A DNA stretch of 38,122 nt, taken from the NCBI GenBank assembly GCA_947472765.1, contig CANJCM010000043.1, positions 1 to 38,122 on the forward strand. Reading direction: 5' to 3'. Below the pieces are notes generated by a model. It was not told where the DNA came from and did no database searches. It worked only from the letters and a program-made list of their open reading frames with translations. The translations under genes and the position numbers were made by a program. Origin of the DNA: Opitutia bacterium. GTDB taxonomy: Bacteria > Verrucomicrobiota > Verrucomicrobiia > Opitutales > Opitutaceae. Shown here in pieces: positions 8,240-38,122 of the stretch (position 1 is its first letter; each line of letters begins with the position of its first letter).

Positions 8240-8256
8240 GGGGCGGAGACTGTCGG

Positions 8257-8640
8257 TGAATTTTCGATTTTCGATTCTCGATTTTCGATTCCGAACCCAA
8301 GCCGGATTCGTGGCTGCGAGCGTGAGCGAGTGGCAGATAAAGCCTACCGGGAGGGCGGGGTGTTTTGAGCCTGAAGCCAGGAAACCCTGAATTTCCGAGC
8401 CGGTTTAACCACAGAGGCGCGAAGGCCACAGAGTAGAGCCGCCTCTCGAGAGCTCGATGACTGACGATCTCAATCGAACGGCTGGACCTATTCCTGGATT
8501 CCTGGCTTCAGGCTCCAATCGATCCGAATCTCGGTGCCTCGGTGTCTCGGTGGTTAACCCAAAGAGCGCCACTCGCTCACGCTCGCAGCCACCCGTCGCT
8601 GGCGTCCGAAATCGAAAATCGAGAATCGAAAATCCAAAAT
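8257..8640. repeat. Nested mirror-image array of four repeat families between divergent genes
   Basis: Left to right: F (TTTCGATTCTCGATTTTCG, 8257-8292), I (GGCTGCGAGCGTGAGCGAG, 8312-8333), J (GAGCCTGAAGCCAGG, 8367-8387), K (GGTTTAACCACAGAGGCG, 8402-8421), then inverted J' (CCTGGCTTCAGGCTCC, 8502-8517), K' (GGTGTCTCGGTGGTTAACC, 8541-8559), I' (CACTCGCTCACGCTCGC, 8569-8592) and F' (GAAAATCGAGAATCGAAAA, 8612-8640). It is a palindrome at the level of repeat units, with J' and K' exchanged. It separates the secreted protein gene from the isomerase gene. Confidence 0.75.
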
Positions 8641-8711
8641 CCGCCCCGCCGGCCGCGCCGACCGCATTTCTTCCTTCTTCCTTCTTAATTCTTCCTTACT
8701 TTTCCCTTCCC

Positions 8712-9974: not shown

Positions 9975-10002
9975 AGAGTTAGGAATTAAGAGTTAAGAGG
10001 GG
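9975..10002 (+). repeat. Purine-rich 3' tag (AGTTAGGAATTAAGAG type)
   Basis: GAGTTAGGAATTAAGAG followed by TTAAGAGGGGG begins four bases after the stop codon of the LarA-like gene and overlaps the 3' end of the convergent four-helix-bundle gene. Related sequences follow the stop codons at 1800, 6434 and 10489 in the same orientation relative to the gene. Confidence 0.6.
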
Positions 10003-10370
10003 GAAGCGCTTGCCCGGGTGCTTTTGAGGACGGCCACGAAAATGGCAGTGAGTTCGTTCGTTTCCTGGCGGACCGCCGCGAGGGGAGCTGACGGCACAAT
10101 TTCAGTGTCCACGAGAAGTTCGAGCCAGTAGCCGGTCTCTTCTAGCTCCCGCAAGCAGTCTCCCATCTTGGCAATGAACTCTGCGCGGCTGCGCGCCCGA
10201 AACGCTTCCCGATAGTTCGCTCCCACCGAAGTTCCGGAGCGGATGAGCTGTCGACCGAGCACGCCGGCTTCGTTCGAGCGCGGCAGTCCGCGACAGGCGC
10301 GAATCACGTCGATCGCGAACAGCTTTGTGCGCAAACGCAGATCGGATCGCATTCCGTGAGCCAGGCTCAT
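9993..10370 (-). CDS. Four-helix-bundle protein (S23-like family)
   Basis: This 125-residue soluble protein shows the motifs of the family originally found as open frames in 23S rRNA intervening sequences: LRTKLFAIDVIRACRGLP (12-29), LGRQLIRSGTSVGANYREAFRARS (38-61), EFIAKMGDCLRELEETGYWLELL (64-86) and a final helix rich in Ala. The fold is a four-helix bundle that forms pentamers in solved relatives; the cellular function is unknown. Either the ATG at 10370 or one at 10352 (MRSDLRLRTKL) could be used. It is convergent with the LarA-like gene. The gene is free-standing, with no rRNA nearby. The same repeat word flanks it on both sides. Confidence 0.85.
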   Translation of the reverse strand: MSLAHGMRSDLRLRTKLFAIDVIRACRGLPRSNEAGVLGRQLIRSGTSVGANYREAFRARSRAEFIAKMGDCLRELEETGYWLELLVDTEIVPSAPLAAVRQETNELTAIFVAVLKSTRASASPS

Positions 10371-10425: not shown

Positions 10426-10497
10426 AGAATTAAGAGTTATGAATTAAGAGGGGCCAGTGCCTGTCTCTTAACTCCTAATTCCTAACTCTCACTTCCC
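10426..10497. repeat. Inverted pair of AATTAAGAG/CTTAATT-type simple repeats
   Basis: Left half AGAATTAAGAGTTATGAATT and right half CTTAACTCCTAATTCCTAAC are approximate inverted copies around a short GC-rich centre. The right half abuts the stop codon of the MFS gene at 10489; the left half lies upstream of the four-helix-bundle gene. Confidence 0.65.
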
Positions 10498-19671: not shown

Positions 19672-19750
19672 TGTCATTCTGAGCGCAGCGAAGAATCCAT
19701 GCGCTTGCCCGCCTCGAGGGCATGGATTCTTCGCTGCGCTCAGAATGACA
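19672..19750. repeat. Perfect 30-bp inverted repeat (CATTCTGAGCGCAGCGAAG type)
   Basis: Bases 19672-19701 and 19721-19750 are exact reverse complements, beginning TGTCATTCTGAGCGCAGCGA, with a 19-bp centre. Sequences of this type (TCATTCTGAGCG...GAAGAATC) occur as intergenic repeats in several bacterial phyla. It lies between the permease and the ATPase genes and would form a very stable hairpin in the transcript. Confidence 0.8.
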
Positions 19751-20874: not shown

Positions 20875-20881
20875 ACGGAAA

Positions 20882-20944
20882 GGTGGCCCACTTGGCCCAT
20901 GTGGCCCAGGTGGCCCATGTGGCTCAGGTGGCCCAGGTGGCACG
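20882..20944. repeat. 9-bp tandem repeat (GTGGCCCAK unit)
   Basis: Seven successive 9-mers, GGTGGCCCA, CTTGGCCCA, TGTGGCCCA, GGTGGCCCA, TGTGGCTCA, GGTGGCCCA and GGTGGCACG, start 8 bp upstream of the ATPase start codon and merge into the REP pair at 20937. Unit number could vary between strains. Confidence 0.8.
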
Positions 20945-20996
20945 GGTCTCCCGACCCGTGTTCCGGCCCGCCACGGGTCGGGAGACCCGTGCCACC
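20937..20996. repeat. GTGG-type REP pair (family C)
   Basis: GGTGGCACGGGTCTCCCGAC (hairpin to 20960) and its inverted copy ending GGAGACCCGTGCCACC (20971-20996), with the GTGG ends outside. It lies between the HlyD-type gene and the ATPase gene. Confidence 0.8.
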
Positions 20997-23713: not shown

Positions 23714-23849
23714 CCACAGTCACGGGCGGCTGGATTGTCGTTCCCTCTCTCCAAGCGGGGATCTTGTCGGGCCACCTACGGAGATCTCCTCTGGATCAGG
23801 AACGATGCATTTGGAATGTAGGGCCGTGGACATTCCGTCGCACGTTAGG

Positions 23850-23990
23850 CAGCCGTGGACGGTGGGGGCACCGTCCCTCCATGGAGCGCTCTTGGAGAGG
23901 AGAGCGAACGGAAGTCTGAACGATCCGCCTGCCATGGAGGGCGGGTGCCCACACCCGCCGATTTCATTCCACTGCATGGTTCCGGCTGGA
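23850..23990 (+). repeat. GGAG-type REP pair (family D), inverted copy of 1203-1344
   Basis: GGACGGTGGGGGCACCGTCC followed by CTCC, a spacer of about 60 bp, then GGAG and GGCGGGTGCCCACACCCGCC. It is nearly identical to the minus strand of 1203-1344. Confidence 0.8.
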
Positions 23991-24082
23991 GACGGGTGGC
24001 GCGTCGCACCGGCGTGTGTCGGCCGGTTGCCTCGACGTCGCCCCCTTTCCGAAACAATCAGGGCAAATGTCCCCCGAACCCA

Positions 24083-24202: not shown

Positions 24203-26074
24203 ATGGCCGAAGTGCGTCCAGGACCGGGGGCGGTCGAACTATCGAACTGGACGCTGGTCCGGCGGTTGTTCGCGCTCGCCTGGCGCTACCGGCTGCACTG
24301 CCTGCAGGTCCTGACGATTCAGCTCGTGCTGCTCACGTTGGGCATCGGCGGCCTGAGCCTGACGGGCGTCGGCATCGATTACATCCGCCACAAGATCGAG
24401 GGGACGCCGCTCGACGCGAACAAGCTCCATCTGACGCTTCCCACGGCGTGGGAGTATTGGGAGGTGCTGGGTATGCTCGCGGGCCTGATCCTCGTGCTCG
24501 CCTGCTGCCGCGCGTGGTTGAATTACACCTACGCCGTCTCGGTCAACCGGCTCGTCCAGCAACGGCTCGTGGTCGACTTGCGCGGCGAGGTTTACGACAA
24601 GCTCCAGCGGCTGAGCTTTCGCTTCTACGATGCGAACAACACCAGTTCGATCATCACGCGCGTTACCAGCGACGTGCAGAGCGTCCGGATGTTCGTCGAT
24701 CAGGTCCTGATCCAGAGCGTGATCATGGGCATCTCGCTTACGGTTTATCTGGTCTACATGATCAACCTGAGCCCGACGCTGACGCTCGGGTGCCTCGCGA
24801 CGACGCCGCTGCTCTGGGTCCTGACCGCGTGGCACACGCGCCGGACCCAGCCCGAGTACGCGCAAAACCGCCTGCTGGTGGAGCGCATGCTGCAGATCTT
24901 CGTCGAGGGCCTGCAAGGCGTGGCTGTGACGAAGGGCTTCGGTCGCGAAGCCACGCAGCGCGCGCATTTCGATGCGGCGAACGATGCCGTGCTCAAGCAG
25001 CAGGGGGTGATTTTCTGGCGCGTCAGCCTGTTCTCGCCCGCGATCGGTTTCCTGACGCGGATCAACATGATGGTGCTGCTCGGCTATGGCGGCTGGCTGG
25101 TGATTCATGGCCGCATTCCGCTCGGCACCGGCTTCGTCGTGTTCGCCGGCCTGCTCGAACAATTCTCCGGGCAGGTGAATAACATCGCGACGATTGTGAA
25201 CTCGGTGCAGCAGTCGCTGATCGGCGCCCGGCGGGTCTTCGAGATTCTCGACGCTCCCGTCGAGGTGCGGAATGCGCCCCAGCCGATCCGCAAGCCGCGG
25301 CTCGAGGGGAGGGTTGAATTCGAAAACGTCTCTTTCACTTACGACGGCGCCGAGGCGGTGGTCCGCGACATCAACCTCGAGGTGAAGGCGGGCCAGTGCG
25401 TGGCGATTCTCGGCGCGACGGGCGCCGGGAAGAGCGTCCTGATGAGTCTGGTGCCGAGGTTCTTCGATCCGACGTCGGGCCGCGTGCTCATCGACGGGAT
25501 CGACGCGCGCCAGCTCCACCTCGATGATCTGCGCCGCAACATCGGGCTCGTTTTCCAGGAAAGCTTTCTCTTCTCGAACACGGTCGCCGCGAACATCGCG
25601 TTCGGCCACCCCGAGGCGACGCGTGCGCAGGTTGAGAAAGCGGCGCGGATCGCGGCGGCGCATGACTTCATCCTGCAGCTCCCGCAGGGCTACGACACGG
25701 TCCTCGGCGAGAGCGGCAACAGTCTTTCGGGCGGACAACGGCAGCGGCTCGCGATTGCGCGCGCGGTCCTGCTCGAGCCGGCGATACTGTTGCTCGACGA
25801 TCCCACGGCGGCGATCGACAGCGAGACGGAGCACGAAATTTTCGAGGCGCTCGATCGCGCGATTGCGGGCCGGACGACGTTCATCGTCGCGCATCGGTTG
25901 AGCACGCTCCGCCGCGCGGACTTCATCATCGTGCTGGAGGACGGCCGGATCGTGCAGCGCGGCACGCATGAGGAGCTGATGCGGCAGCAGGGCCCGTACC
26001 TCCACGTCGCGAGCCTGCAACTCGTCGACGGCCGCGAACTGCAGCAGTTGAAGCTGAAGGAGGGTGGCCGATGA
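24203..26074 (+). CDS. ABC exporter half-transporter, subunit 1 (degenerate Walker B)
   Basis: The 623-residue fusion has six transmembrane helices (about 30-330) and one nucleotide-binding domain (about 368-610), the layout of MsbA/BmrA-type type IV exporters. Motifs: Walker A GATGAGKS (404-411), Q-loop FQESF (451-455), signature LSGGQRQRLAIARA (508-521), Walker B AILLLDD (527-533), D-loop AAID, switch His564. The residue after the Walker B Asp is Asp533 instead of the catalytic Glu, so its own ATP site is probably inactive or slow. The second half-transporter follows 388 bp downstream, and the two should form a heterodimer with one degenerate site (compare TM287/288 and LmrCD). Substrate unknown: lipids or drugs. 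The ATG at 24203 has no Shine-Dalgarno. Confidence 0.92.
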   Translation: MAEVRPGPGAVELSNWTLVRRLFALAWRYRLHCLQVLTIQLVLLTLGIGGLSLTGVGIDYIRHKIEGTPLDANKLHLTLPTAWEYWEVLGMLAGLILVLACCRAWLNYTYAVSVNRLVQQRLVVDLRGEVYDKLQRLSFRFYDANNTSSIITRVTSDVQSVRMFVDQVLIQSVIMGISLTVYLVYMINLSPTLTLGCLATTPLLWVLTAWHTRRTQPEYAQNRLLVERMLQIFVEGLQGVAVTKGFGREATQRAHFDAANDAVLKQQGVIFWRVSLFSPAIGFLTRINMMVLLGYGGWLVIHGRIPLGTGFVVFAGLLEQFSGQVNNIATIVNSVQQSLIGARRVFEILDAPVEVRNAPQPIRKPRLEGRVEFENVSFTYDGAEAVVRDINLEVKAGQCVAILGATGAGKSVLMSLVPRFFDPTSGRVLIDGIDARQLHLDDLRRNIGLVFQESFLFSNTVAANIAFGHPEATRAQVEKAARIAAAHDFILQLPQGYDTVLGESGNSLSGGQRQRLAIARAVLLEPAILLLDDPTAAIDSETEHEIFEALDRAIAGRTTFIVAHRLSTLRRADFIIVLEDGRIVQRGTHEELMRQQGPYLHVASLQLVDGRELQQLKLKEGGR

Positions 26075-26115
26075 GTGCGGCGCACCAGATGCAGTTGATC
26101 GTGGCGAAGGCCGGT

Positions 26116-26142
26116 TGTAGGGCCGGCGCTAGTCGCCGGGCC
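26116..26142 (+). repeat. GTAG-type REP hairpin (family A)
   Basis: TGTAGGGCCGGCGCTAGTCG with its stem partner CGCCGGGCC, alone, 42 bp after the stop of ABC subunit 1. A related, GGAG-ended half lies at 26404-26430. Confidence 0.7.
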
Positions 26143-26146
26143 TCGG

Positions 26147-26422
26147 CTTCCCTCGTCGCTCGTCCGCTCTTCCCCGTAGCCCGCTGCGTGAGCAGCGGGA
26201 CCTCTTCGTTCGAAAGAACCTGCCGGTCCCTGCGCTCACGCGCAGGGCTACGTTCGATCAAGGAGTCCCGCCGGCGAGCGGCGGCTTTCCGGGTAGCTCG
26301 CTTGGCCTTCCCCGTAGCCCGCTGCGTGAGCAGCGGGACCTCTTCGTTCGAAAGAACCTGCCGGTCCCTGCGCTCACGCGCAGGGCTACGTTCGATCAAG
26401 GAGGCCCGCCGGCGAGCGGCGG
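26147..26422. repeat. 138-bp tandem duplication, each unit holding a GTAG-type REP pair (family B)
   Basis: The stretch 26169-26284 is repeated at 26307-26422 with one difference (T at 26266, G at 26404). The remaining 22 bp of each unit are only similar. Each unit contains GTAGCCCGCTGCGTGAGCAG and the partner GCGCTCACGCGCAGGGCTAC around a centre with TTCGTTCGAAAGAACC (26174-26249 and 26312-26387), then the hairpin CGCCGGCGAGCGGCGG. It fills the gap between the two ABC exporter genes. Confidence 0.85.
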
Positions 26423-26462
26423 CCCTCCATTTCGGAACCGGTTCGGTGCAGGAGGCCGCGCG

Positions 26463-28535
26463 ATGAAAGACCCCGCCGCCAAGCTTCCCGAAATCCGCGA
26501 TCTCGGACTCGTTCGCCGACCGCGCGACGAGGACGACGACGAGGAGATCCAGAAGCCGCTGGAGTGGTCGCTGATCCGGCGGCTGTTCACCTACGCCAAG
26601 CCGGTGCAGCGGAAGCTGAACCTCTTGATCGTGATGAGCACGATCCGCGCGGCGCAGATCCCTGCCTTCCTCTGGATCACGTCGATGATGATCCGCGGGC
26701 CGATCACGCACGCCGATGTGCGCGGACTTGCGTGGGGCGTCGCCGGTTACCTCGCCCTCGCGCTCTGGACGGACGGGATGTTTCACTTCCGGCAGCGGTT
26801 CGCCCTCGAGATCGGCGAGACCGTGGTGAACCGGCTGCGGGCGGACATTTTTGCGCGGGTGCAGCGGCAGCCGATGAGCTTCTTCCACCGGATGAAGATC
26901 GGCCGGATCATCGGCCGGATGACGAGCGATGTGGAAGCCCTGCGCGTCGGCATCCAGGACGTGCTCTTCGTCAGCATGATTCAATCCGGCCAGATGCTCT
27001 TCTCGGCCGTGGTCATGGCCTGGTCGGACTGGGTGCTGTTTCTCGTGGTTCTCGGAATGGCTCCTGTGATGTGGATCATCAACCGCCACTTCCGCGTGAA
27101 GCTCAGCCACTACTCGCGCGCAGCGAGCGACAGCTTCAGCCGGGTGACGGCGACGCTCGCCGAATCCGTGAACGGGATTCGCGTAACCCAAGGCTTCGTG
27201 CGGCAGCAGACCAATGCCGGACTCTTCCGCAACCTGCTCGCCGACCACTCGCGGTTCAGTATCGCGCTGGCCCGGACCTCCGCGATCCTGACGCCGATCC
27301 TGGAGCTCAACAGCCAGTTCTTTGTGGCCATCCTGTTGATGTTCGGGGGCTGGCGCGTGTTTCACGGCCAGATGGGCGTGGGCGACCTGATTACGTTTTT
27401 CCTGCTGGCCAACCAGTTCTTCGCCCCGATCGCGGTCATTGGGAATCAATACAACCAAGCCCTCGTCGCGATGGCCGGAGCGGAGCGCGTGTTCCGGCTG
27501 ATCGATGCGAAGCCGGATTGGGAGGACGCGGCCGACGCGAAGGACCTGCCGGATCCCAGGGCGGAATGTGGGTCGGCCGCGGTTCCGGGTCCTGAGTTCA
27601 ACGTTCTGGGTTCGAAGGCGGACACGAAGCCCTTCGGGCCACACGGAGCCCAGAACGCAGAACCCAGAACGCAGAACCCAGAACCCAAAACCCAACCCTC
27701 CGCCCTTGGAGGCGCGGTGCCCCCACCGCGCGAAAGTCATGACGAAATACCTCCAGCGGCGGGTGGGGGCACCCGCCCTCCAGGGAACGGCGCGGGGATC
27801 AAAGTTGAGTTTGATCGCGTCTCCTTTGGCTACGATCCCAGCCGTTTAGTGCTTCATGACGTGACATTTACGGCCGAGCCTGGCCAGACGGTGGCCCTCG
27901 TCGGCCATACCGGCAGCGGCAAGAGCTCGATTATCAACTTGGTGGCCAAGTTTCACCTGCCGACGCAGGGCGAGTTGCGGTTGGACGGCCGTGAAGTCCG
28001 GAGTCTCACGAGCCTCTCACTCCATCGTCAAATGGGTATGGTGCAGCAGCAGAACTTCTTGTTCAGCGGCACAGTTCTGGAAAATATCCGCTTTGCCCGA
28101 CCCGAGGCGACGGAGGCCGAGGTTAGGGCGGCGGCGGCGCAGCTTGACTGTCTCGATCTGTTCGAGGCGCTGCCGCAAGGGCTGCACACGGAAGTGGGGG
28201 AGAAAGGCGCCGCGCTGTCGGTCGGGCAGCGGCAACTCGTGTGTTTTGCGCGGGCCCTGCTGGCGGATCCTCGTTTGGTAATCCTCGATGAAGCAACGAG
28301 TTCAATCGACGCCTTGACGGAGGCCCGGTTACAGCGGGCCCTGGTCGCCCTGTTGCGCGGGCGGACGAGCTTCGTCGTGGCCCACCGGTTGAGCACGATC
28401 CGGCACGCGGACCTCGTCCTTGTCCTCGATCAGGGCCGGATTATCGAGCGCGGGACCCACACCGAGCTGCTGGCCGCCGGGGGGCACTATGCCGCGCTTT
28501 ACCGGCAGTTTGTCCAAATCGACGACCGGAAGTAG
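26463..28535 (+). CDS. ABC exporter half-transporter, subunit 2 (degenerate signature, enlarged linker)
   Basis: This 690-residue partner of subunit 1 has six transmembrane helices (about 45-340) and a nucleotide-binding domain (about 446-690). Motifs: Walker A GHTGSGKS (481-488), Q-loop QQQNF (528-532), signature LSVGQRQLVCFARA (585-598), Walker B LVILDE (605-610) with intact catalytic Glu610, D-loop SSID, switch His641. The signature Gly-to-Val change pairs with the weak Walker B of subunit 1 in the same composite site, leaving the other site canonical. Residues about 361-443 are a Pro/Gly/Asn-rich insert made of translated repeat DNA; subunit 1 has about 20 residues between the same landmarks and this one about 100. 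A strong Shine-Dalgarno (GCAGGAGG, 7 bp before ATG) is present. The N-terminal 30 residues are acidic. Confidence 0.92.
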   Translation: MKDPAAKLPEIRDLGLVRRPRDEDDDEEIQKPLEWSLIRRLFTYAKPVQRKLNLLIVMSTIRAAQIPAFLWITSMMIRGPITHADVRGLAWGVAGYLALALWTDGMFHFRQRFALEIGETVVNRLRADIFARVQRQPMSFFHRMKIGRIIGRMTSDVEALRVGIQDVLFVSMIQSGQMLFSAVVMAWSDWVLFLVVLGMAPVMWIINRHFRVKLSHYSRAASDSFSRVTATLAESVNGIRVTQGFVRQQTNAGLFRNLLADHSRFSIALARTSAILTPILELNSQFFVAILLMFGGWRVFHGQMGVGDLITFFLLANQFFAPIAVIGNQYNQALVAMAGAERVFRLIDAKPDWEDAADAKDLPDPRAECGSAAVPGPEFNVLGSKADTKPFGPHGAQNAEPRTQNPEPKTQPSALGGAVPPPRESHDEIPPAAGGGTRPPGNGAGIKVEFDRVSFGYDPSRLVLHDVTFTAEPGQTVALVGHTGSGKSSIINLVAKFHLPTQGELRLDGREVRSLTSLSLHRQMGMVQQQNFLFSGTVLENIRFARPEATEAEVRAAAAQLDCLDLFEALPQGLHTEVGEKGAALSVGQRQLVCFARALLADPRLVILDEATSSIDALTEARLQRALVALLRGRTSFVVAHRLSTIRHADLVLVLDQGRIIERGTHTELLAAGGHYAALYRQFVQIDDRK
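27583..27790 (+). repeat. Repeat DNA translated in frame inside ABC subunit 2
   Basis: Two elements follow each other. At 27602-27693, GTTCTGGGTTC is opposed by tandem copies of CAGAACGCAGAACC. At 27707-27784, a GGAG-type REP pair shows GGAGGCGCGGTGCCCCCACC and, inverted, GGGTGGGGGCACCCGCCCTC. Both types are otherwise intergenic in this window. The reading frame is kept and no stop codon is introduced. Confidence 0.8.
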
Positions 28536-28823: not shown

Positions 28824-31800
28824 ATGAAAACGTTCCGCTCCGCCCTTGCCCTCTGTGTGTCGACGATTGGATTTGGACTCTCCGCCGTCTTCGCGGTTCC
28901 GAGTATCACCACGGAGCCGGTTCCGACGAGCATCACCGTGAGCGGCTCCGCGACCCTCACTGTGGCCGCCAGTGGCAGCGGTGCCCTCAGCTATCAATGG
29001 TACAAGTACGGAGTCGCGGTCACTGGTGCCACCAACGCCTCCCTGCCGTTGAACTCGGCCAGCCTGAGTGACGCCGGCCTGTACAATGTTATTGTCACCG
29101 ATCCGGACACTTCGACGGCGACCTCGCGCACGGTCCGGGTCGACGTCGTGCCGTCCAGTTACGTCGGTGGCGTTCTTCGCCCGCGGCCCAGCTTCATGCC
29201 GCGCATCGAAATCGCCAGTGCCGGCATCAACGCCTTCGCCTACTTTACGCATCCGACGGACGCGACCCAGAACAAGCTTTATGTCGCGGGCGATTTCACG
29301 CGCGCCAGCGACGCCGGTGGGACGCTGACGCAGCGCCTCAACATTCTGCGCTTCAATGCGGACGGAACCATTGACACATCTTATGCTCCGCCGGCGATCA
29401 TCGGCGGCGGTATCCGGGCGCTCTATGTGCAGTCGGACGGCAAGGTCGTGATCGGCGGCGACTTCTCGGCGGTTAATGACGCCACTGCGGGACAGGTCAC
29501 GCGCGGTCGAATTGCGCGGCTCAACGCCAACGGCTCACTCGACACGAGCTTTGTGAGTGGTAGTGGTGCCGGCGCGAACGGCTCCGTGTACGCGATTGCG
29601 GCCCAAGGTTCGAACTATCTTGTCGGCGGCCAGTTCAACTTCTTCAGCGGGACGAGTGTCAACCGCCTGGTCCGAATCAGCGCTTCCACGGGTACGGTGG
29701 ATTCGACATTTGTCCAGACCGGGACGGGATTTGCTTCGGATATCCGGGCGATCGCGGTGGATTCCAACGCCAACACGATCTACGTCGGCGGCCTTTTTGC
29801 CACCTACAACGGCAGCGGAACCAATGCCACCCGTATCGCGCGTCTTGGACAAAATGGCGGCGCCATCGATGCGACGTTCGCCACCGGCACCGGCTTCAAC
29901 AGCGACGTCCGCGTCCTCACCCTTCAGGACGTTGGAAGCGTCGGTGCGCCGGACTTGCGCTTGCTGGTCGGCGGTCTTTTCACGACCTACAATGGAAGCG
30001 CCGCGGGGACGACGAACCGGATGGTGCGGCTCAAACTCGACGGCACGATCGATACGGCGCTCAATCTCGGTTCCGGCACCACGCACGGTTTCAACAGCGA
30101 CGTTGTGACGTTCGCAGTCGACAGCACGAATCGCATCTATGTTGGCGGCCTGTTTACGTCGTTCAACGGCACTTCCACCAACGTCAACCGGCTGATCAGG
30201 ATCGATGCGACAGGAGCACTCGATACCACGTTTAATCCGGCCAGCGGTGCCACCAGCACGGTGCAGGCACTGCTGCTGCGGGAGGCCGATAGCCAGGTAT
30301 ACGTTGGCGGTATCTTTAGCAGTTTCAACAGCACCGCCCGGGCGGGCTTTGCCCGGCTTGGTACCGCCGTCGGCGCGCTCGATTCGCTCGCGCCGCTGTT
30401 TCGCCGGCCCGGCTCCGTTTTCGCCCTGGAAGCCGCGCCGGGCGGGAAGTGGTACATTGGCGGAGCGTTCAGCCACATCGACGACACCCCGCGCAGCAAT
30501 TTTGCCCGGTTGAATGCCGACGGCACGCTGGACACCTTTACGGCCGCCGGTTCGGGATTCAACGGGACCATCATTACGCTGGCGGTGCTGGGTGATGGCC
30601 GGGTGATGGCTGGCGGTAGTTTCAATGCCTTTAATGGCACGAATCGGAATAATGTTCTCCGGATGGCGGCCGACGGCACGCTTGATACGACGTTTGCCCC
30701 CGCCGGCACCGGTCTGAATGGCACGGTGCCCACGCTCGCCCTGCAGGGAGATGGCAAAGTGGTCATTGGTGGCACGTTTACTTTGTACAACGGCACCTCC
30801 CGGAACCGGATCGCCCGGCTGACCTCGACGGGCGCCCTCGACACCACCTTCGATCCCGGAACGGTGGGATTCAACGGCACCGTAAATCAGTTAGCGCTGC
30901 AATCTGACGGCAAAATCCTCGTCGCTGGGGCGTTCGGCCAGTTCAACGGGGTCACCGTGAACGGATTCATCCGGCTGACCTCCGCCGGACTCGCGGATTC
31001 CGCTTACCCGGCCACTGGCACCGGCATGGGGAGCACCACATCGGACGCGGTCGCGATTCCGTTTTCCACCACGCTCGCCGGTGAGACCCCTTATGTCGCG
31101 GGCTCGTTCACGGCTTACAACAGCGTTACCCGTAATCGCATTCTCCATCTCAATGCCGACGGAACTCTGGATACGACCACCTTTGGCGCTGCGGCCAGTC
31201 TCTCCCTGTCCAACAGTAGGCTCTCGGCGCTCGCCCTCCAGTCCAACGGCCGGGTTGTGACCGGAGGCTTCTTCACGACGGTCAACGGCACGGCCCGCTT
31301 GGGCCTGGCCCGGTTCAATGCAGATGGATCGACGGACAACTTTTCCGTGCCCTCCATCCTCGTTGTCCCCTCCAGCGGCATCAACGCGCTCCGGTTTGCG
31401 GCGGACGGCTCGGTGATCGCCGCCGCGACGCGGGTGGACTTTGCCGAAGGGCTGGGCAGTGGTACGCTGTTTATGCTCGAGGCGGCGCCGGTCCCGGCGA
31501 TCACCGCGCATCCGTCCAACTCGACGACGATCCAGGGAGGAACAGCGACGTTTACCGCCACGGCCACGGGAGAGAATCTCCAATATCAGTGGTTCCGGGA
31601 CAGTACGTTGCTCACTGGCCAGACCGCGGCAACGCTGACGCTTAATAATGTGCAGCTGTCGGATCTCGACAGCTATACGGTGCGCGTTTCCAACGTTTAC
31701 GGCTCCGTCACCAGCAATGCCGCCGTGATTGTGGCATCGAATGCGGCCCCGAATATTAGTTCTCAATCGACGACCGTGAACGCCGTTTCAGGTGCTACGG

Positions 31801-34800
31801 CGACGCTGACGGTAAACGCCTCAGGTGCGGCGCTGGGCTATCAGTGGCGGCGAGGTGGAATTCCTCTGGCCGGCCAGACGGGCGCGAGCCTCGTCATCAA
31901 CCCGGTCAAGCGTTTCGACGCGGACATTTACGATGTGGTGATCAACAGCGGCATCGCCGTGACCGTGTCGCAACCGATCCGGCTGACCGTCGCGCCGGTG
32001 ACCCAGCCAGCGGGCTCGAGAATCGATTCGGCGTTCTCGGTCAACATCGACTCCAACAGTCAGAACAGCGTCAACAAAGTCGCCGTTGACGGAACGCCGT
32101 CGGGCAACCGCGTCGTCGTGGCGGGCGAATTTCGGATGATCGGCACGGCAGCCCGCAATCGCGTGGCGCGCTTCAATGCCGACGGCACCCTCGATACAAC
32201 CTTTGTGCCGCAGGTCGTTTCGCCCACGCCCATCAGCGCGCTTGCCGTGCAAAGCGATCACAAGGTGCTCGTCGGTGGTACCATGAACACGACGGCGCAG
32301 AAGGATGCCAAGCGTCTCGTGCGAATGATGGAAGACGGCTCCCTCGATACCGCTTTCAACAATAACATGCCGATCGTCTTCGGCAACGTGCTCTCTATTG
32401 TCGTCCAGCCGGACGGCAAAATTCTGGCCGCCGGGGTGTTTTCCTTCAATCCCGACGGGATTCAGCGGAATCGCATCGTACGGCTGATGCCGGATGGGAC
32501 TCTCGACACGTCCTTCTTTGCCGACGTCAACAGCACGATCAATGCGATGGCGTTGCAGGCGGACGGAAAAATCCTGATCGGTGGAAGCTTTACGGCAGTG
32601 AATAACGCGACGCGGACGCGGATCGCCCGGCTCGAGGCGAACGGCACGCTTGATACAACCTTCACGCCGGCAGCACCCGATTCTACCGTGCTGGCGATTG
32701 CTCAGGCGCGGGATGGTTCGAACAAGATCTACATCGGTGGCCAGTTTAATAACGTCGACGGAAACTCCTCAGCCCGGCTGGCACGCCTGACTTCCACGGG
32801 TGCTTACGATGCGCTGAGTTCGCTCGGCACCGGATTTAACAACAACGTCAACGACATCGTCGCTCAGGCCGATGGGAAAATCATCGTCGCCGGACCGTTT
32901 ACTTCGCTTGGTCAAACCGGCGGTTCGGTCACGGTTAACCGGGTTGCGCGGCTGACCACGGCAGGAGCCGTCGACGCCACGTTTGCCGTCGGCACGGGAC
33001 TTAACTCCCAAGCTCTGACGGTTGCGCTTTACCAAACGACGGCGGCGGACGACACCGTCCTCGTTGGCGGCCAGTTCACCACCTTCAATAACGCGACGCA
33101 CGGTCCGGTCGTCCGGCTCACGTCTGCAGGTGCGGAAACCACCCCGGCATTGAATCCGACGATGGTGGCGGCAGCGATTCCCAATGCGGTGGCGGCATTG
33201 CCGAACGGCCAGTTCCTCGTGGCCGGTAGTTTCTCTGCGGTGGACGGCGTCGCCCGTTTCAACCTCGCCCGCTATAATGCGAATGGAACGTTTGACTCAA
33301 CTTACAATCCCGGGTCGACGGGTGCGACCAGCATCAATGGCACCGTGAATGCCCTCGCTGTGCGCGGCGACGGCAAGGTTATGATAGCGGGTGGCTTCAC
33401 CACGGTGGGAGGTGCCGCAGCCGTGCGTGTGGCGCGTTTGAATGCCGACGGGACGCTGGACGGCACTTTCAATTCCTCGGTCGGTATGAGCACTGCGCCG
33501 AGTTGGATCCTCCTTCAGCCAGACGGAAAGGTGCTCGTCGGCGGGCCCACCAGTTTCACCTACAATGGTGGCGTTACCCGAACTGGCGTCGTGCGCTTGC
33601 TCGCGGATGGGTCGGTCGATCCGTCCTGGGTGAATCTGAATACGAATGGTGGATTCAACGGAACGATCCTCGGTGCTGCTGTGCAGTCTGACGGTCGAGT
33701 CCTTGTGGGCGGCCAGTTCACGACGCTTAACGGCACGGCGCAGACCAATCTCGCCCGGCTGCTACCGGATGGCTCGCTGGATACCAGCTTCGCAGTTGGA
33801 ACGCTCAACGGCCAGGTGAATGCGATCCTCGTAATCCCGGGCACGCCGGGGTCGGAGTCCGTGATGATTGGTGGCGCTTTCACGACCTACGGGGGAACCA
33901 CCCGCAATCGGGTCGCGCGGCTGACATCAACCGGTTCGCTTGATGTGGCATTTGATCCCGGTACCGGTGCGAATTCGAATGTGATAGGATTCCTGCTGCA
34001 GGAAGATGGCAAGGTCCTGGCTCGGGGTTCGTTCACCAGTTATGGTCCTACTAACGCGAATACGGTCGGCATCGTCCGGCTGCAGAGCGATGGCACCAAG
34101 GATCCGGCGTTTGGGGTCTACGGTCTGACAATTTCCAGCACGGTGGCCGGACTCATCGTTCAGGATGACGGCACCCTGCTGTTCCCGGGACAGGCGATTT
34201 ACGACAACTTCGTCGCGCGCGCGTCCGTGGCTCACACGGTCCCGGCCACCGCGCGGTCGATCACGACGCCGCCGCAGTCCGTGACGGTGAACGAAGGCGT
34301 TAGCACCACTCTGAGCGTCGTGGCTGACGGCACTGGTCCGCTCACCTACCAGTGGCTCAAGGATGGCAGCACCATCGCAGGCGCCACGAGCAGCACGCTC
34401 TCGATCACCAATCCGTCCCGTGAAGAGGCCGGCAGCTATTCCGTCCAAGTGACGAACCTGGCCGGCACGATCACCAGTCCGGCTGCGACGCTCACGGTCA
34501 ATCCGACTCCGTACATCACGTCCATCAGCCCGAGCCAGACGGTGGATCCGCAGAGCAATTTCACGCTCTATGCCGAGATCCAGTCGGTTCCGGCGCCCAC
34601 CTCGGTGCAGTGGTTGAAGAATGGCACCCCGATCCCCGGTGCCACGCTGCCGAGCCTCAATATTGGCAGCTTCCAGGCTTCGGATGCCGGTACGTATTCA
34701 CTCAGCGTGACCAACAGCGTGGGCAGTTCCACCTCGTTGCAGCAGTCGGCCATCGTCGGCGGCTGGTCCTTCACGAACGCCGGCCCGGCTCATAGCAACG

Positions 34801-37800
34801 GTGTGATCACGTTCCTCGCCGACGGCCGCTTCTTCCTCGCCGAGGATGGCGATGCCACGGCGGACCCCTCCGGGCACGATGGCATGGAACGCGGTTTCTA
34901 TACCTGGAATCCCGGCAGCGGAGAGTACACGATGAACGTCCGCAGCGATACGAACGGCGGCTGGGGCTTTGCGCACATGACCGGTGCCTCCACGATCACG
35001 GTTTCGGGCACCACGCTTACCGCCGGCTCCGTCACGTTCACCCGTGTCACCAATGCTTCCAACCCGGCGGTCGGCAGCTTCGCGGGAGGCGACGCCCTCG
35101 GCCAGGCCTGCATCACCTTCTTCGCCGATGGGACGTACTTCATGGCTGAGGACGGCGCACCCGATGCCGGCGGCGGCCCCGGCATGGAGCGGGGCACATA
35201 TACCTATGACGCCGGCACGGGTGCCTTCACCGCGACGGCCACCGTCGACACCAGTGGTGACAGGGGTGCTTCGGGGGCCGTGGGTACAGTGAAGTTCTTC
35301 GGCAATACGATGGTCTTCATGGACCAGGATACGACCCGCCTCGATCGCGTGGTGCCGACGGCGACGACTCTCACTCTTTCGAGCAAGCCGGTGATCACGG
35401 CGAACCCCGTCTCCGCCGCGGTGGCGGTGGGCGGTTCCACGACGCTGAGCGTCACGGCTTCCGGCACCGGTACGTTGACTTATCAATGGCGCCGCAACGG
35501 AGCGAACATCCCCGGTGCGACCAATGCCACGCTCCCGGTCACCCTCAATGCGGCGACGGACGGAGCGCTCTTCGACGTTGTCGTCGGCAGCGCGGCGGGC
35601 AGCACCGTCAGCCACGCCGCAAGCTTCGTCGTCGACTCCTCGATTCTCGATGAGAGCTTCACGCCCCCGCAATTTGCGGGACCGGCCTCCGGCTGGGGCG
35701 AGGTTCTTTCCGATGGTTCGTTCCTGGTCAGCGCCCGGATTCGCCAGTCCGCTGGGACGCAGATGTCGGAACGCGGCGCCGGTATCGCCCGCTACCTGGC
35801 GGACGGCACCCCGGATGCCGCCTTCAAAACGAAGTATCCTGCTGAATACGGTTCGCTCGCGTCCCGCGTGCTCGCCGTTTCGGGCAAGTTCTATGCGGCC
35901 GTGGACACGAGCCGCTATCTTGGCACGACGGCAAAGGCCACCATCGCCCGGTTCTTCAATGACGGCACGCTGGACGGCAGTTTCGCACCGTACACCTTTG
36001 ATCCCGGTTCCACTGAAAACAACGTCACGGGATTTGTCCTCCAGACGGACGGCAAACTTATCGTTTCGGGTCAGTTCACGAATGTGAACGGCACCGGCCG
36101 TTCGGGCCTCTTCCGCCTGAACACAGATGGGTCACTCGACACCTCTTTTGTTGTTACGACGTTCAGCGGCGGTCGCGGGCTGTATGCGACCCCGCGGGTC
36201 GACAGCAACGGCAAGATTCTCGTCGCGGGTGAATTCAACAACTTCAACGGCACTGCGAGTACGGTGGGCATCGTTCGGCTGAACGCCGACGGCAGCCGTG
36301 ATAGCACGTTCACGGCTGCTGGATTCACCACCTCCTTCGGTGCGATCCGCGGGCTGATGATCCAATCCACCGGCAAGATCGTGCTCGGCGGCCGTTTCAC
36401 GGTGAACGGCGTCGGCCTGATTCCGTTCATCCGGCTGAATGCTGACGGTTCGCTCGACTCGACCTTCTCGACCTTCACGGTCTCCAAGCCCAGCTTTATC
36501 AATGCGGATCTACTCCCTCTGCCCGGCGACAAGTTTGCCGGCTCGCCGATGGATATGGTCGTCTGCAACGCCGACGGCACGCGCGTTCCGGCCTCGGAGT
36601 TCACTTCCCCGGTGCGCTACGATATCACGGATCCGAGCGAATCCTCCAACACCGGGGTGAGTCAGATTCGGCTTCGGGCGGATGGTTCCTACCTCATCGG
36701 TGGCAACTTCTCGCACCTGAATGGAGTGGCTGTCCCGCGGGTCGCGATCCTCTCTGCAAACGGCACGGTGCAATCCACGAGCATCGATGGCATGGGGACA
36801 ACCGTCCTTCCGCTCACTTTCGTGAGGACCGCCAACGGTCACACGATCGGCGGCTACAGCACCTATGTTGCCGGAGTGTCGAACACCAATGGCATCATGT
36901 TCGACCTCCAGGCGAATGGCTCGGTGGCGACCACGCCGTTCAGCACCGCGCTGTCGTCGGGTGGCTTCTACTTCTCGTTCGCTCGTGTCGGTGACGGCCG
37001 GATTTTTGTGATTGCCGAAGACTACGCGCAAAACCGTTTCTTCCGCCGGCTGCTGCCGGACGGCTCGGTCGACTCCAGTCTGACGACGACCGCCGCCCCG
37101 GCGGGCGGGCCGAACCCGGACTTCGCGTTTGTGCAGCCCGACTTCAAGACGCTCATTACGGCCCGGTTCCCCGAAGATCAGGAAATCGTGAATGGGGAGA
37201 ACCTGCGTCGGTTGAACGTCGATGGTTCTCTCGATACCGGATACACGGCGGAACTCGATCAGGTGGCCACTCCCGCGCGCGGCACGCCGCTGTCGGGTGA
37301 ATCTGTCGGGCCGCTGCAGTCAGTGACCCGCCTTGGGATCGAGGTGCTCGCGGTGGATGCCTCCAACCGCGCCTATGTCCGCTATCCGGCCACCGGCGGG
37401 GTTACCCGTCTCGCCCGCCTGAACGCGAATGGCTCACGCGACACCACCTTCGCGATCGTCACGGCTCCGACGATTGTGGGGACCTACACCTCGCAATCCG
37501 TCACCGATCCGCTGCGTCCGACAGCGTCGCCGGCCACCGTCACGGTCAACACCGCGTCACGGCGCGAGTTCCTCGACGTCGTCGTGCAGGCCAGCGGCAA
37601 GATCGTCATCGCGGGTAATTTCAAGTCGCTCACGATCGACGGCACGACGACGAACCAGCCTGGGCTGGCCCGGCTGAACGCCAACGGATCGCTCGATACC
37701 ACCTTCAACTCGGGTAACGCCGGACCGGCCTGGACCACCACGCCCGTGACGTCGACCGACTTCCCGGCGGTGGAGGCCATGGTGCAACAGGCCGATGGCC

Positions 37801-38122
37801 GTATCCTCCTCGCGGGCAACTTCGAAGCTTACAACGGCATGCCGGCGCCCGGCTTGGTGCGGATTAATCCGAACGGCACCTATGACCCGACGTTTGTTTC
37901 GCCCGTGGCCCGCAGCCTGCGGTATTCGGCCTGGCCCGAAATGCAGATGCAGGACGATGGTTCCATCCTGCTGATGGGCGGGTACGTCGTCCCGGGTGAA
38001 CGTTTCGCCCGCGGGATCGTCCGCCTGACCATCGATGGCGCCGCCCCGACGATTACCCAGCAGCCCGCACCGGCCACGGTCATCGCCGGTGGCGAGGTGA
38101 CCCTGAGTGTCGCGCCCGCCGG
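28824..38122 (+). CDS. Giant secreted delta-60 repeat/Ig-like protein (3' end outside window)
   Basis: One frame, checked at many points, runs from the ATG at 28824 to the last base: more than 3,099 residues with no stop. A signal peptide (MKTFRSALALCVSTIGFGLS, cleavage near FA|VPS) is followed by an Ig-like domain (28-107). Delta-60 repeats, units of 50-65 residues with the core RLNADGTLDTTF and then QxDGKxxxGGxF, fill about 130-885, 1066-1800 and 2273-3072; about 40 units are seen. Ig-like domains (LSYQWxxxG, AGxYxVxVTN) lie at about 888-1060 (two), 1811-1977 (two), 2188-2271 and from 3074. A duplicated module (LADGRFFLAEDG, GMERGFYTW) occupies about 1980-2189. Delta-60 units are predicted to form beta-propellers. 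The C-terminus, which would show anchoring (autotransporter, PEP-CTERM or T9SS-like), is outside. Surface adhesion is a guess. Confidence 0.9.
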   Translation, partial: MKTFRSALALCVSTIGFGLSAVFAVPSITTEPVPTSITVSGSATLTVAASGSGALSYQWYKYGVAVTGATNASLPLNSASLSDAGLYNVIVTDPDTSTATSRTVRVDVVPSSYVGGVLRPRPSFMPRIEIASAGINAFAYFTHPTDATQNKLYVAGDFTRASDAGGTLTQRLNILRFNADGTIDTSYAPPAIIGGGIRALYVQSDGKVVIGGDFSAVNDATAGQVTRGRIARLNANGSLDTSFVSGSGAGANGSVYAIAAQGSNYLVGGQFNFFSGTSVNRLVRISASTGTVDSTFVQTGTGFASDIRAIAVDSNANTIYVGGLFATYNGSGTNATRIARLGQNGGAIDATFATGTGFNSDVRVLTLQDVGSVGAPDLRLLVGGLFTTYNGSAAGTTNRMVRLKLDGTIDTALNLGSGTTHGFNSDVVTFAVDSTNRIYVGGLFTSFNGTSTNVNRLIRIDATGALDTTFNPASGATSTVQALLLREADSQVYVGGIFSSFNSTARAGFARLGTAVGALDSLAPLFRRPGSVFALEAAPGGKWYIGGAFSHIDDTPRSNFARLNADGTLDTFTAAGSGFNGTIITLAVLGDGRVMAGGSFNAFNGTNRNNVLRMAADGTLDTTFAPAGTGLNGTVPTLALQGDGKVVIGGTFTLYNGTSRNRIARLTSTGALDTTFDPGTVGFNGTVNQLALQSDGKILVAGAFGQFNGVTVNGFIRLTSAGLADSAYPATGTGMGSTTSDAVAIPFSTTLAGETPYVAGSFTAYNSVTRNRILHLNADGTLDTTTFGAAASLSLSNSRLSALALQSNGRVVTGGFFTTVNGTARLGLARFNADGSTDNFSVPSILVVPSSGINALRFAADGSVIAAATRVDFAEGLGSGTLFMLEAAPVPAITAHPSNSTTIQGGTATFTATATGENLQYQWFRDSTLLTGQTAATLTLNNVQLSDLDSYTVRVSNVYGSVTSNAAVIVASNAAPNISSQSTTVNAVSGATATLTVNASGAALGYQWRRGGIPLAGQTGASLVINPVKRFDADIYDVVINSGIAVTVSQPIRLTVAPVTQPAGSRIDSAFSVNIDSNSQNSVNKVAVDGTPSGNRVVVAGEFRMIGTAARNRVARFNADGTLDTTFVPQVVSPTPISALAVQSDHKVLVGGTMNTTAQKDAKRLVRMMEDGSLDTAFNNNMPIVFGNVLSIVVQPDGKILAAGVFSFNPDGIQRNRIVRLMPDGTLDTSFFADVNSTINAMALQADGKILIGGSFTAVNNATRTRIARLEANGTLDTTFTPAAPDSTVLAIAQARDGSNKIYIGGQFNNVDGNSSARLARLTSTGAYDALSSLGTGFNNNVNDIVAQADGKIIVAGPFTSLGQTGGSVTVNRVARLTTAGAVDATFAVGTGLNSQALTVALYQTTAADDTVLVGGQFTTFNNATHGPVVRLTSAGAETTPALNPTMVAAAIPNAVAALPNGQFLVAGSFSAVDGVARFNLARYNANGTFDSTYNPGSTGATSINGTVNALAVRGDGKVMIAGGFTTVGGAAAVRVARLNADGTLDGTFNSSVGMSTAPSWILLQPDGKVLVGGPTSFTYNGGVTRTGVVRLLADGSVDPSWVNLNTNGGFNGTILGAAVQSDGRVLVGGQFTTLNGTAQTNLARLLPDGSLDTSFAVGTLNGQVNAILVIPGTPGSESVMIGGAFTTYGGTTRNRVARLTSTGSLDVAFDPGTGANSNVIGFLLQEDGKVLARGSFTSYGPTNANTVGIVRLQSDGTKDPAFGVYGLTISSTVAGLIVQDDGTLLFPGQAIYDNFVARASVAHTVPATARSITTPPQSVTVNEGVSTTLSVVADGTGPLTYQWLKDGSTIAGATSSTLSITNPSREEAGSYSVQVTNLAGTITSPAATLTVNPTPYITSISPSQTVDPQSNFTLYAEIQSVPAPTSVQWLKNGTPIPGATLPSLNIGSFQASDAGTYSLSVTNSVGSSTSLQQSAIVGGWSFTNAGPAHSNGVITFLADGRFFLAEDGDATADPSGHDGMERGFYTWNPGSGEYTMNVRSDTNGGWGFAHMTGASTITVSGTTLTAGSVTFTRVTNASNPAVGSFAGGDALGQACITFFADGTYFMAEDGAPDAGGGPGMERGTYTYDAGTGAFTATATVDTSGDRGASGAVGTVKFFGNTMVFMDQDTTRLDRVVPTATTLTLSSKPVITANPVSAAVAVGGSTTLSVTASGTGTLTYQWRRNGANIPGATNATLPVTLNAATDGALFDVVVGSAAGSTVSHAASFVVDSSILDESFTPPQFAGPASGWGEVLSDGSFLVSARIRQSAGTQMSERGAGIARYLADGTPDAAFKTKYPAEYGSLASRVLAVSGKFYAAVDTSRYLGTTAKATIARFFNDGTLDGSFAPYTFDPGSTENNVTGFVLQTDGKLIVSGQFTNVNGTGRSGLFRLNTDGSLDTSFVVTTFSGGRGLYATPRVDSNGKILVAGEFNNFNGTASTVGIVRLNADGSRDSTFTAAGFTTSFGAIRGLMIQSTGKIVLGGRFTVNGVGLIPFIRLNADGSLDSTFSTFTVSKPSFINADLLPLPGDKFAGSPMDMVVCNADGTRVPASEFTSPVRYDITDPSESSNTGVSQIRLRADGSYLIGGNFSHLNGVAVPRVAILSANGTVQSTSIDGMGTTVLPLTFVRTANGHTIGGYSTYVAGVSNTNGIMFDLQANGSVATTPFSTALSSGGFYFSFARVGDGRIFVIAEDYAQNRFFRRLLPDGSVDSSLTTTAAPAGGPNPDFAFVQPDFKTLITARFPEDQEIVNGENLRRLNVDGSLDTGYTAELDQVATPARGTPLSGESVGPLQSVTRLGIEVLAVDASNRAYVRYPATGGVTRLARLNANGSRDTTFAIVTAPTIVGTYTSQSVTDPLRPTASPATVTVNTASRREFLDVVVQASGKIVIAGNFKSLTIDGTTTNQPGLARLNANGSLDTTFNSGNAGPAWTTTPVTSTDFPAVEAMVQQADGRILLAGNFEAYNGMPAPGLVRINPNGTYDPTFVSPVARSLRYSAWPEMQMQDDGSILLMGGYVVPGERFARGIVRLTIDGAAPTITQQPAPATVIAGGEVTLSVAPA

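Follow-up and report, generated by a model that had tools for sequence, protein, structure and literature searches.

The interdomain linker of one ABC exporter subunit as an apparent hotspot for palindromic repeat DNA

Introduction

How does repeat DNA that otherwise lies between genes come to form part of an intact protein gene, and does the protein have any need of it? The question is raised by a two-gene ABC exporter located in a 38,122-nt stretch of DNA from Opitutia bacterium (contig CANJCM010000043.1; the whole stretch is referred to here as the window). A reading made from the sequence alone had noted that the second subunit contains about 80 extra residues between its membrane and ATPase domains, encoded by a REP pair and a CAGAAC-type repeat. 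We have investigated the anatomy of this insert, the corresponding site in orthologous loci and in the partner subunit, and the occurrence of the repeats in the window's genome and in the genomes of relatives.

Results

The exporter genes and the linker of subunit 2

The exporter comprises two half-transporters, in each of which a profile search detects both the membrane domain (PF00664) and the ATPase domain (PF00005). The features of the locus are as follows, coordinates being those of the window.

24203..26074, + strand: ABC exporter subunit 1; PF00664 and PF00005, Walker B DDPTAA, signature LSGGQ
26463..28535, + strand: subunit 2 of the exporter, 690 aa, carrying the long linker; PF00664 at 54-322, PF00005 at 464-613
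27561..27794, + strand: linker, residues 367-444, 78 aa; disordered in the AlphaFold2 prediction
27581..27613, no strand: 5' arm of the 7-mer inverted repeat (GTTCTGG type), inverted-repeat pair I17
27660..27692, no strand: 3' arm (CCAGAAC-type tandem 7-mers), pair I17; the array starts at about 27647
27708..27735, no strand: left REP (GGAG...GGTGCCCCCACC), from repeat queries; not in sister L001
27756..27785, no strand: right REP (GGTGGGGGCACC...CTCC), repeat family D19 and repeat queries; not in sister L001

Subunit 2 retains Walker A (GHTGSGKSS), the signature (LSVGQ), Walker B (LVILDEATSS) and the H-loop. LSVGQ is a degenerate signature, yet it is the consensus of the exporter family and the degeneracy is therefore no sign of damage. 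By the usual motif rules, the pair has one degenerate ATP site, subunit 1 carrying DDPTAA and LSGGQ and subunit 2 DEATSS and LSVGQ. Judged by these sequence motifs, the two-gene exporter is of the heterodimeric ABC exporter type. When solved structures are searched by sequence, double-length ABCB proteins of eukaryotes rank first (E to 1e-125), and bacterial half-transporters such as YheH and TM_0288 come after them (E 1e-89 to 1e-95).

The gap between the two exporter genes is filled by a 131-aa ORF with two 138-nt REP-containing units (26071-26466, + strand), which overlaps the stop codon of subunit 1 and the start codon of subunit 2, the overlap being ATGA in both cases. The distance from the subunit 1 stop to approximately residue 30 of subunit 2 is 478 nt in the window, the longest among 92 loci (median 80). 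At locus L015, an ~80-nt high-copy palindromic repeat lies between the two exporter genes (6807-6915); a search with the whole L015 match as query, 40 of 770 candidates being scored, found it at least several tens of times in the genome concerned, counting the two strands together.

The linker extends from after ...LPDPR366 to before G445-IKVEF. Within it, the two arms of the 7-mer inverted repeat are 82% complementary and 46 nt apart, and the hairpin score of 21 exceeds that of all 200 dinucleotide shuffles (mean 10.5). The predicted RNA fold of 27560-27800 has a z of -4.1, with 0 of 200 shuffles equally good. The subunit 2 reading frame is open through both repeats, and the insert is presumably translated. 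In the AlphaFold2 model (alignment of 42 sequences; mean pLDDT 78.7 and pTM 0.68 for subunit 2 overall) the insert is predicted to be disordered, residues 371-442 having a pLDDT below 50 with blocks of 33-39. The neighbouring domains are mostly at 75-97 with a few dips to 55-60, and the N-terminus (1-27) is low.

Linker length in orthologous loci and in the partner subunit

We compared 110 orthologous loci, consisting of the best 80 of 94 relatives and 30 loci from 57 genomes, with 11 genomes common to both. The linker was obtained in one frame from 107 of the 110, giving 96 distinct linkers. Three loci were left out: L094, in which the contig ends inside the ATPase part, L110, in which there is no membrane-domain match, and L107, in which the stretch corresponding to approximately query residues 249-527 is absent with one frame kept (a 361-codon open frame), an apparent internal deletion representing either a deletion or an assembly fault. 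From the equivalent of residue 350 to the start of the ATPase domain, subunit 2 measures 20 to 98 residues across loci, 98 being the value in the window. In L039 and L041, which are 81-84% identical to the window's subunit 2 over the two domains, only two residues are present as linker (...LPAMR-GT-GVRVEF and ...LPAAR-GT-GVRVEF, respectively), compared with 78 in the window, in which ~76 residues are therefore extra. The alignment of orthologues thus bears out the ~80 additional residues of the sequence-only reading, which had placed the insert at residues 361-443, close to the 367-444 measured here, and had correctly described the ATPase motifs as intact and the frame as kept.

In subunit 1, the linker is exactly 16 residues long in 93 of 93 loci (104 of 104 before 11 duplicates were removed; five loci lack the part and one is below 40% identity). 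The subunit 2 span, by comparison, has 30 different lengths over 91 loci of the same set. Since the linker is fixed in subunit 1 and variable in subunit 2, tolerance is a property of one subunit. The suggestion that the insert lies at the one place where an exporter tolerates a flexible linker is therefore retained for subunit 2 and not for subunit 1.

The 7-mer hairpin is present in the sister L001/L082, in which the REP pair is absent, suggesting two insertions of different age. The REP pair would so be a younger addition in the window's lineage, as judged from one sister only. Look-alike linkers are also found in the more distant L014 and L102, as might be expected of an old protein segment; these loci are placed apart on the tree, however, and independent recruitment of one repeat family is the more economical reading of the sequences.

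Copies of the linker repeats in the window's genome

With the insert as query, at least 61 matches are detected in the window's genome, the insert itself included (40 of 280 candidates scored). The genomic context of the repeats was determined over 438 kb, made up of 20 stretches plus the window and equal to ~9% of the genome, for which rough gene calls give 376 genes and 85.7% coding sequence. In addition to this linker's copies, five repeat queries find 62 intergenic matches, a number in which the two halves of a REP pair can score one place twice, together with one match at a gene edge and four other gene-interior matches of 14-17 nt, which is chance size. No full-length copy is found in any other gene among the 376 rough gene calls of this ~9% sample. 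Within this sample, the description of the insert DNA as two repeat types that are otherwise intergenic is upheld, the exceptions being short or at a gene edge.

The linker REPs fit the REP/BIME pattern, being short palindromes arranged as an inverted pair and present in many, mostly intergenic, copies. By eye, the linker pair carries GGAG and the other REPs in the window carry GTAG; degenerate tags have been reported for O. terrae REPs (PMC3733652). The window's genome has seven matches to PF01797 (RAYT), and one of these loci, L120, adjoins a strong GTAG-type hairpin. RAYT flanks were considered as the source of the linker REP and rejected, as only L120 of the seven has a strong hairpin and this is of another REP type. 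Among the seven PF01797 loci, none ties a RAYT to the REP type of the linker.

Inverted pairs of 7-mer arrays number at least 11 in the 438 kb, three of them around PF05635 genes, five intergenic and three overlapping gene ends. None was found inside another gene in the 438 kb, the detector being one that misses imperfect hairpins; one pair that is not of the 7-mer kind, 15 nt long with 541 nt between its members, lies within a gene. When the 438 kb are combined with loci L001-L080, at least seven gene-less 7-mer hairpins occur outside linkers, with 41-164 nt between arms and a mean of 29% of six frames open. The detectors overlook imperfect hairpins, that of the window's own linker included, and the counts are therefore lower bounds.

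Other repeats are present in the window. Two neighbouring inverted pairs ~22.5 kb apart (1197-1352 and 23842-23996), one of 89 nt with 89% and one of 61 nt with 92% agreement, include REP units, and the DNA that they enclose could invert by means of them. A 9-nt tandem repeat (AGGTGGCCC type) forms six overlapping 27-nt copies at 20881-20952, and a hairpin of 34 bp, 97% complementary with an 11-nt loop, is located at 19672-19750. Many dispersed repeats, 'NADGTLDTTF'-like in one frame, occupy 29332-37897 (+ strand), and these may correspond to the delta-60 repeats of a large exported protein.

The 7-mer hairpin and PF05635 (S23p) genes

The CAGAAC repeat had been correctly recognized as a repeat; its nature is corrected here to two 7-mer arrays in inverted orientation, resembling those found on either side of PF05635 genes. 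One such gene is present in the window.

9993..10370, - strand: PF05635 (S23p / 23S rRNA intervening-sequence protein) gene, E = 1.2e-17
9975..9999, no strand: first 7-mer arm flanking the PF05635 gene, AGAGTTAGGAATTAAGAGTTAAGAG, pair I15
10465..10489, no strand: second 7-mer arm, inverted, at the opposite flank of this gene, pair I15

In the window's genome, all five PF05635 genes above the cut-off are flanked by inverted 7-mer arms and a sixth, below the cut-off, is not. A set of 84 loci whose flanks are complete was drawn from the PF05635 list plus the window's genome (4 of 60 later-fetched loci were dropped for their flanks); inverted arms are found around the gene at 52 of these and not at 32, with a corresponding frequency of 2 in 300 random windows. 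The best-fitting period among the 52 armed loci is 7 in 37, 8 in nine and another value in six. An earlier PF05635 set had arms at 20 of 28 full-flank loci, or 20 of 34 with six loci cut by contig ends included. For a first group of 20 arms, the mean self-match is 0.74 at a shift of 7, and other shifts give 0.21-0.32. Sampled more broadly across the phylum, only 9 of 26 PF05635 loci have such arms. An assignment of the 5' arms to the strand of the PF05635 gene was dropped, as an inverted repeat reads alike on both strands. Elsewhere in the window, inverted TTTTCGA-type 7-mer arms 295 nt apart (8255-8302 and 8598-8645) are possibly a decayed S23p element.

Linker inserts also match the PF05635 flanks directly. 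Seven of 27 inserts of at least 60 nt do so at E 0.01 or better, a figure obtained after more loci had been added and run without the random control; with the first, smaller flank set, 2 of 27 matched at E 0.001 and no non-self match was observed in 105 random control windows. The inserts of the window (L081), L014 and L102 match the flank of L220, in which a CAGAAC array is located directly 3' of the PF05635 gene. The L001 insert matches the flanks of L113, L212, L221 and L220, that of L085 matches L216 and that of L099 weakly matches L164, while the L094 insert matches L115 and L164, the latter being in L094's own genome (G018). On this sequence likeness, the linker hairpin looks like a gene-less relative of S23p-type elements, from which it may well descend. 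Alternatively, the 7-mer hairpins without a gene might form a repeat family of their own, within which PF05635 genes simply happen to be located.

Palindromic repeats at the same site in other lineages

A hairpin test set was formed by the 43 of 96 distinct linkers that continue for 40 nt or more beyond their first 16 codons. In 14 of the 43 (L014, L001, L081 of the window, L015, L029, L002, L005, L021, L012, L038, L099, L009, L011 and L032) the inverted repeat beats all 200 dinucleotide shuffles, a cut-off reached by same-length segments of the same genes in 0 of 43 cases upstream and 0 of 43 downstream (2 and 1 of 43, respectively, with two shuffles allowed). In a selection of 14 linkers, 11 match themselves best when shifted by 7 nt. 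L094, outside the hairpin test, likewise has a 7-mer hairpin, L085 is borderline (2 of 200 shuffles) and L102, despite having matching units, did not pass (51 of 200). The shuffle test gives no hairpin signal for the long linkers L103, L013 and L095.

These classes were placed on a quickly built tree of 96 rows, from which the linker was excluded and which contains several long branches. Five states were labelled by hand, L102 according to its units and L085 and L103 as 'none'. The five-state label requires 12 changes and shuffled labels 14-15, the observed label thus being somewhat more clustered than chance, and palindrome presence or absence requires 11 changes, 10 of which are forced by starred branches; gains and losses are not told apart in these counts. 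Marked differences between starred sisters are seen in the case of L032 (7-mer) and L038 (REP), of L099 and L055 (7-residue segment), of L014 and L034, and of L009 beside L039/L041. The occurrence of distinct repeat families at one site indicates several independent gains. On the sequences compared, the subunit 2 linker is observed to be a recurrent hotspot for palindromic repeats of several families.

The linker repeats of other lineages also have copies in their own genomes. The counts include both strands, places being fewer, and are lower bounds because several of the searches scored 40 candidates. With the linker itself removed, the GTTC-type query (L014) gives at least about 9 matches in G000, 12 in G004, 41 in G031, 16 in G061 and 2 in G062, and the REP type (L038) at least 54 in G063, 5 in G064 and 23 in G065. 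The CAAGTGA type (L015) has at least five in G057, the best at 75% over about 106 nt, and one or two short matches each in G029, G058, G059 and G060, where support is weak. Comparison of linker DNA with its own locus (up to about 14 kb searched) reveals a 48-nt copy at 98% for L009 and, for seven others, only 15-19-nt matches of chance size.

Discussion

Combined, the existence of relatives without the segment, the presence of the repeats elsewhere in the genome and the intact frame support recruitment of repeat DNA as coding sequence, as the sequence-only reading had proposed; its view of a single snapshot is replaced by that of a recurrent hotspot. We consider it probable (approximately 0.7) that the insert is translated, disordered filler that arose when mobile palindromic repeats inserted in frame twice in succession, filtered by tolerance and with no function required. 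The first to insert would have been a hairpin without a gene, its arms being tandem 7-mers like those flanking PF05635/S23p genes here, and the REP pair would have come later. Hairpin repeats may land widely, and in coding DNA, where many would break the frame, they would persist only if the frame stays open and a floppy segment is harmless. The linker of subunit 2 would be tolerant in this respect and the fixed linker of subunit 1 would not. Recurrence would then reflect a tolerance filter acting on a steady supply of hairpins, the insert needing no function and being, we infer, near-neutral.

The same observations bear on other explanations. Control could be exerted at the RNA level if RNase III cut the mRNA at the 7-mer hairpin, and thereby either determined how much full-length subunit 2 is made or split its domains apart, a scheme for which the strong predicted RNA structure (z = -4.1) and the excision by RNase III of the S23p-type IVS of Coxiella (PMC4990558) can be cited. 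This appears unlikely, as quite different insert families, and many hairpin-free orthologues, occupy the site, the frame is preserved across the linker, which would be needless for an excised element, and the ATPase part would presumably have no evident start site once the mRNA was cut. Inserts begin right after the conserved ...DPR codons, beside GGATCCGCG-like DNA in many of 20 linkers, as would be expected were the site a true sequence-specific insertion target, beyond mere tolerance. The conserved domain ends at DPR, however, so that this starting point is expected in any case, and the main repeat classes are unrelated in sequence and the same repeats are found at many other sites; such a target is, in our estimation, quite improbable.

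That the linker is instead a long-established part of the protein with a function, such as a tail for regulation or docking, and has DNA that is merely repeat-like, would accommodate the protein-level likeness of linkers in separate lineages (L081, L001 and L014). We regard this as very improbable, because the tree places between them numerous relatives whose linkers are short, at about 2-10 residues, close relatives vary in the repeat family as well as in the length and sequence of the linker, linker DNA has matches elsewhere in its own genome and the model is disordered. Repeats are where assemblers fail and the window's genome is in 157 contigs, so that repeat DNA might have been misjoined into a metagenome-assembled gene. 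The hairpin is, however, common to a separate genome (L001/L082) and comparable inserts are present in many separate assemblies, those of L099 and L102 in genomes of one and two contigs, and the frame is open across both repeats, although the REP pair itself is seen in the window's genome alone. An assembly artefact is a most unlikely source of the insert.

Two insertions of mobile repeats into a tolerant linker thus remain our preferred reading, and give the locus the character of a replicated natural experiment, in which one protein site would have taken up hairpin DNA several times independently and the paralogous site of the partner subunit forms a built-in negative control. The frequency and cost with which non-coding mobile DNA turns into protein become testable in this way, and an uncultured Verrucomicrobia group provides a natural series on how non-coding DNA becomes protein. 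The link between the hairpin and S23p offers related elements, with and without a gene, in rRNA and in a protein gene, with which to study spread.

Comparison with known systems

In-frame REPs and RPEs are already known. In Rickettsia, palindromic repeats (RPE) are inserted in frame in protein genes with the product apparently kept, according to PMC10969869, and the linker is like them in that a palindromic repeat lies within a gene whose frame is kept. RPEs are reportedly spread over many unrelated genes within one genome, whereas here a single linker is affected across many lineages, the hairpins involved belong to two or more unrelated classes, and a full-length copy was found in no other gene of the 438 kb. 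Additional residues encoded by REP dimers have been reported from the same bacterial group as the window, with flexible linkers or loops suggested as tolerated sites (PMC3733652); in the passages of that source considered here, same-site hits are stated only for recB of two Xanthomonas species, and neither 7-mer hairpins nor ABC exporters are mentioned. A case in which hairpins of unrelated classes were recruited time and again at one linker, the paralogous control being invariant, was not found among the top open-licence literature matches, which is weak evidence.

The 23S rRNA IVS of Coxiella burnetii contains an S23p ORF preceded by tandem 7-mers (GACAGAT), and has terminal inverted repeats, a 28-bp terminal stem and reported excision by RNase III (PMC4990558). 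The linker hairpin shares with it terminal inverted repeats forming a stem and tandem 7-mers, and differs in the lack of an S23p ORF, for which its 46-nt loop is too short, and in lying in an exporter gene rather than in 23S rRNA. With neither an ORF nor an rRNA location, it is thus not a member of the rRNA IVS; hairpin versions containing a PF05635 gene do occur elsewhere in the window's genome. We would give even odds to the broader proposal that PF05635/S23p genes outside rRNA belong to a mobile hairpin family whose inverted arms are made of tandem 7-mers that diverge from one another and for which the rRNA IVS is one habitat, and that its gene-less members, together with REPs, have repeatedly fed one tolerant linker across a bacterial family. 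S23p genes outside rRNA between inverted 7-mer arms were likewise not found among the top open-licence matches, weak evidence again, only the Coxiella paper being relevant.

The STRR sequences of cyanobacteria are short tandem units, with a 7-nt unit, dispersed in the genome, and are alike in that tandem short units are scattered over a genome; they are not known to form inverted arms around an S23p gene. Heterodimeric ABC exporters such as TM287/288, TmrAB and BmrCD consist of two half-transporters with one degenerate and one consensus ATP site, an arrangement which, by its motifs, the exporter examined here shares. It is set apart by the 78-residue linker of subunit 2, opposite a partner linker fixed at 16.
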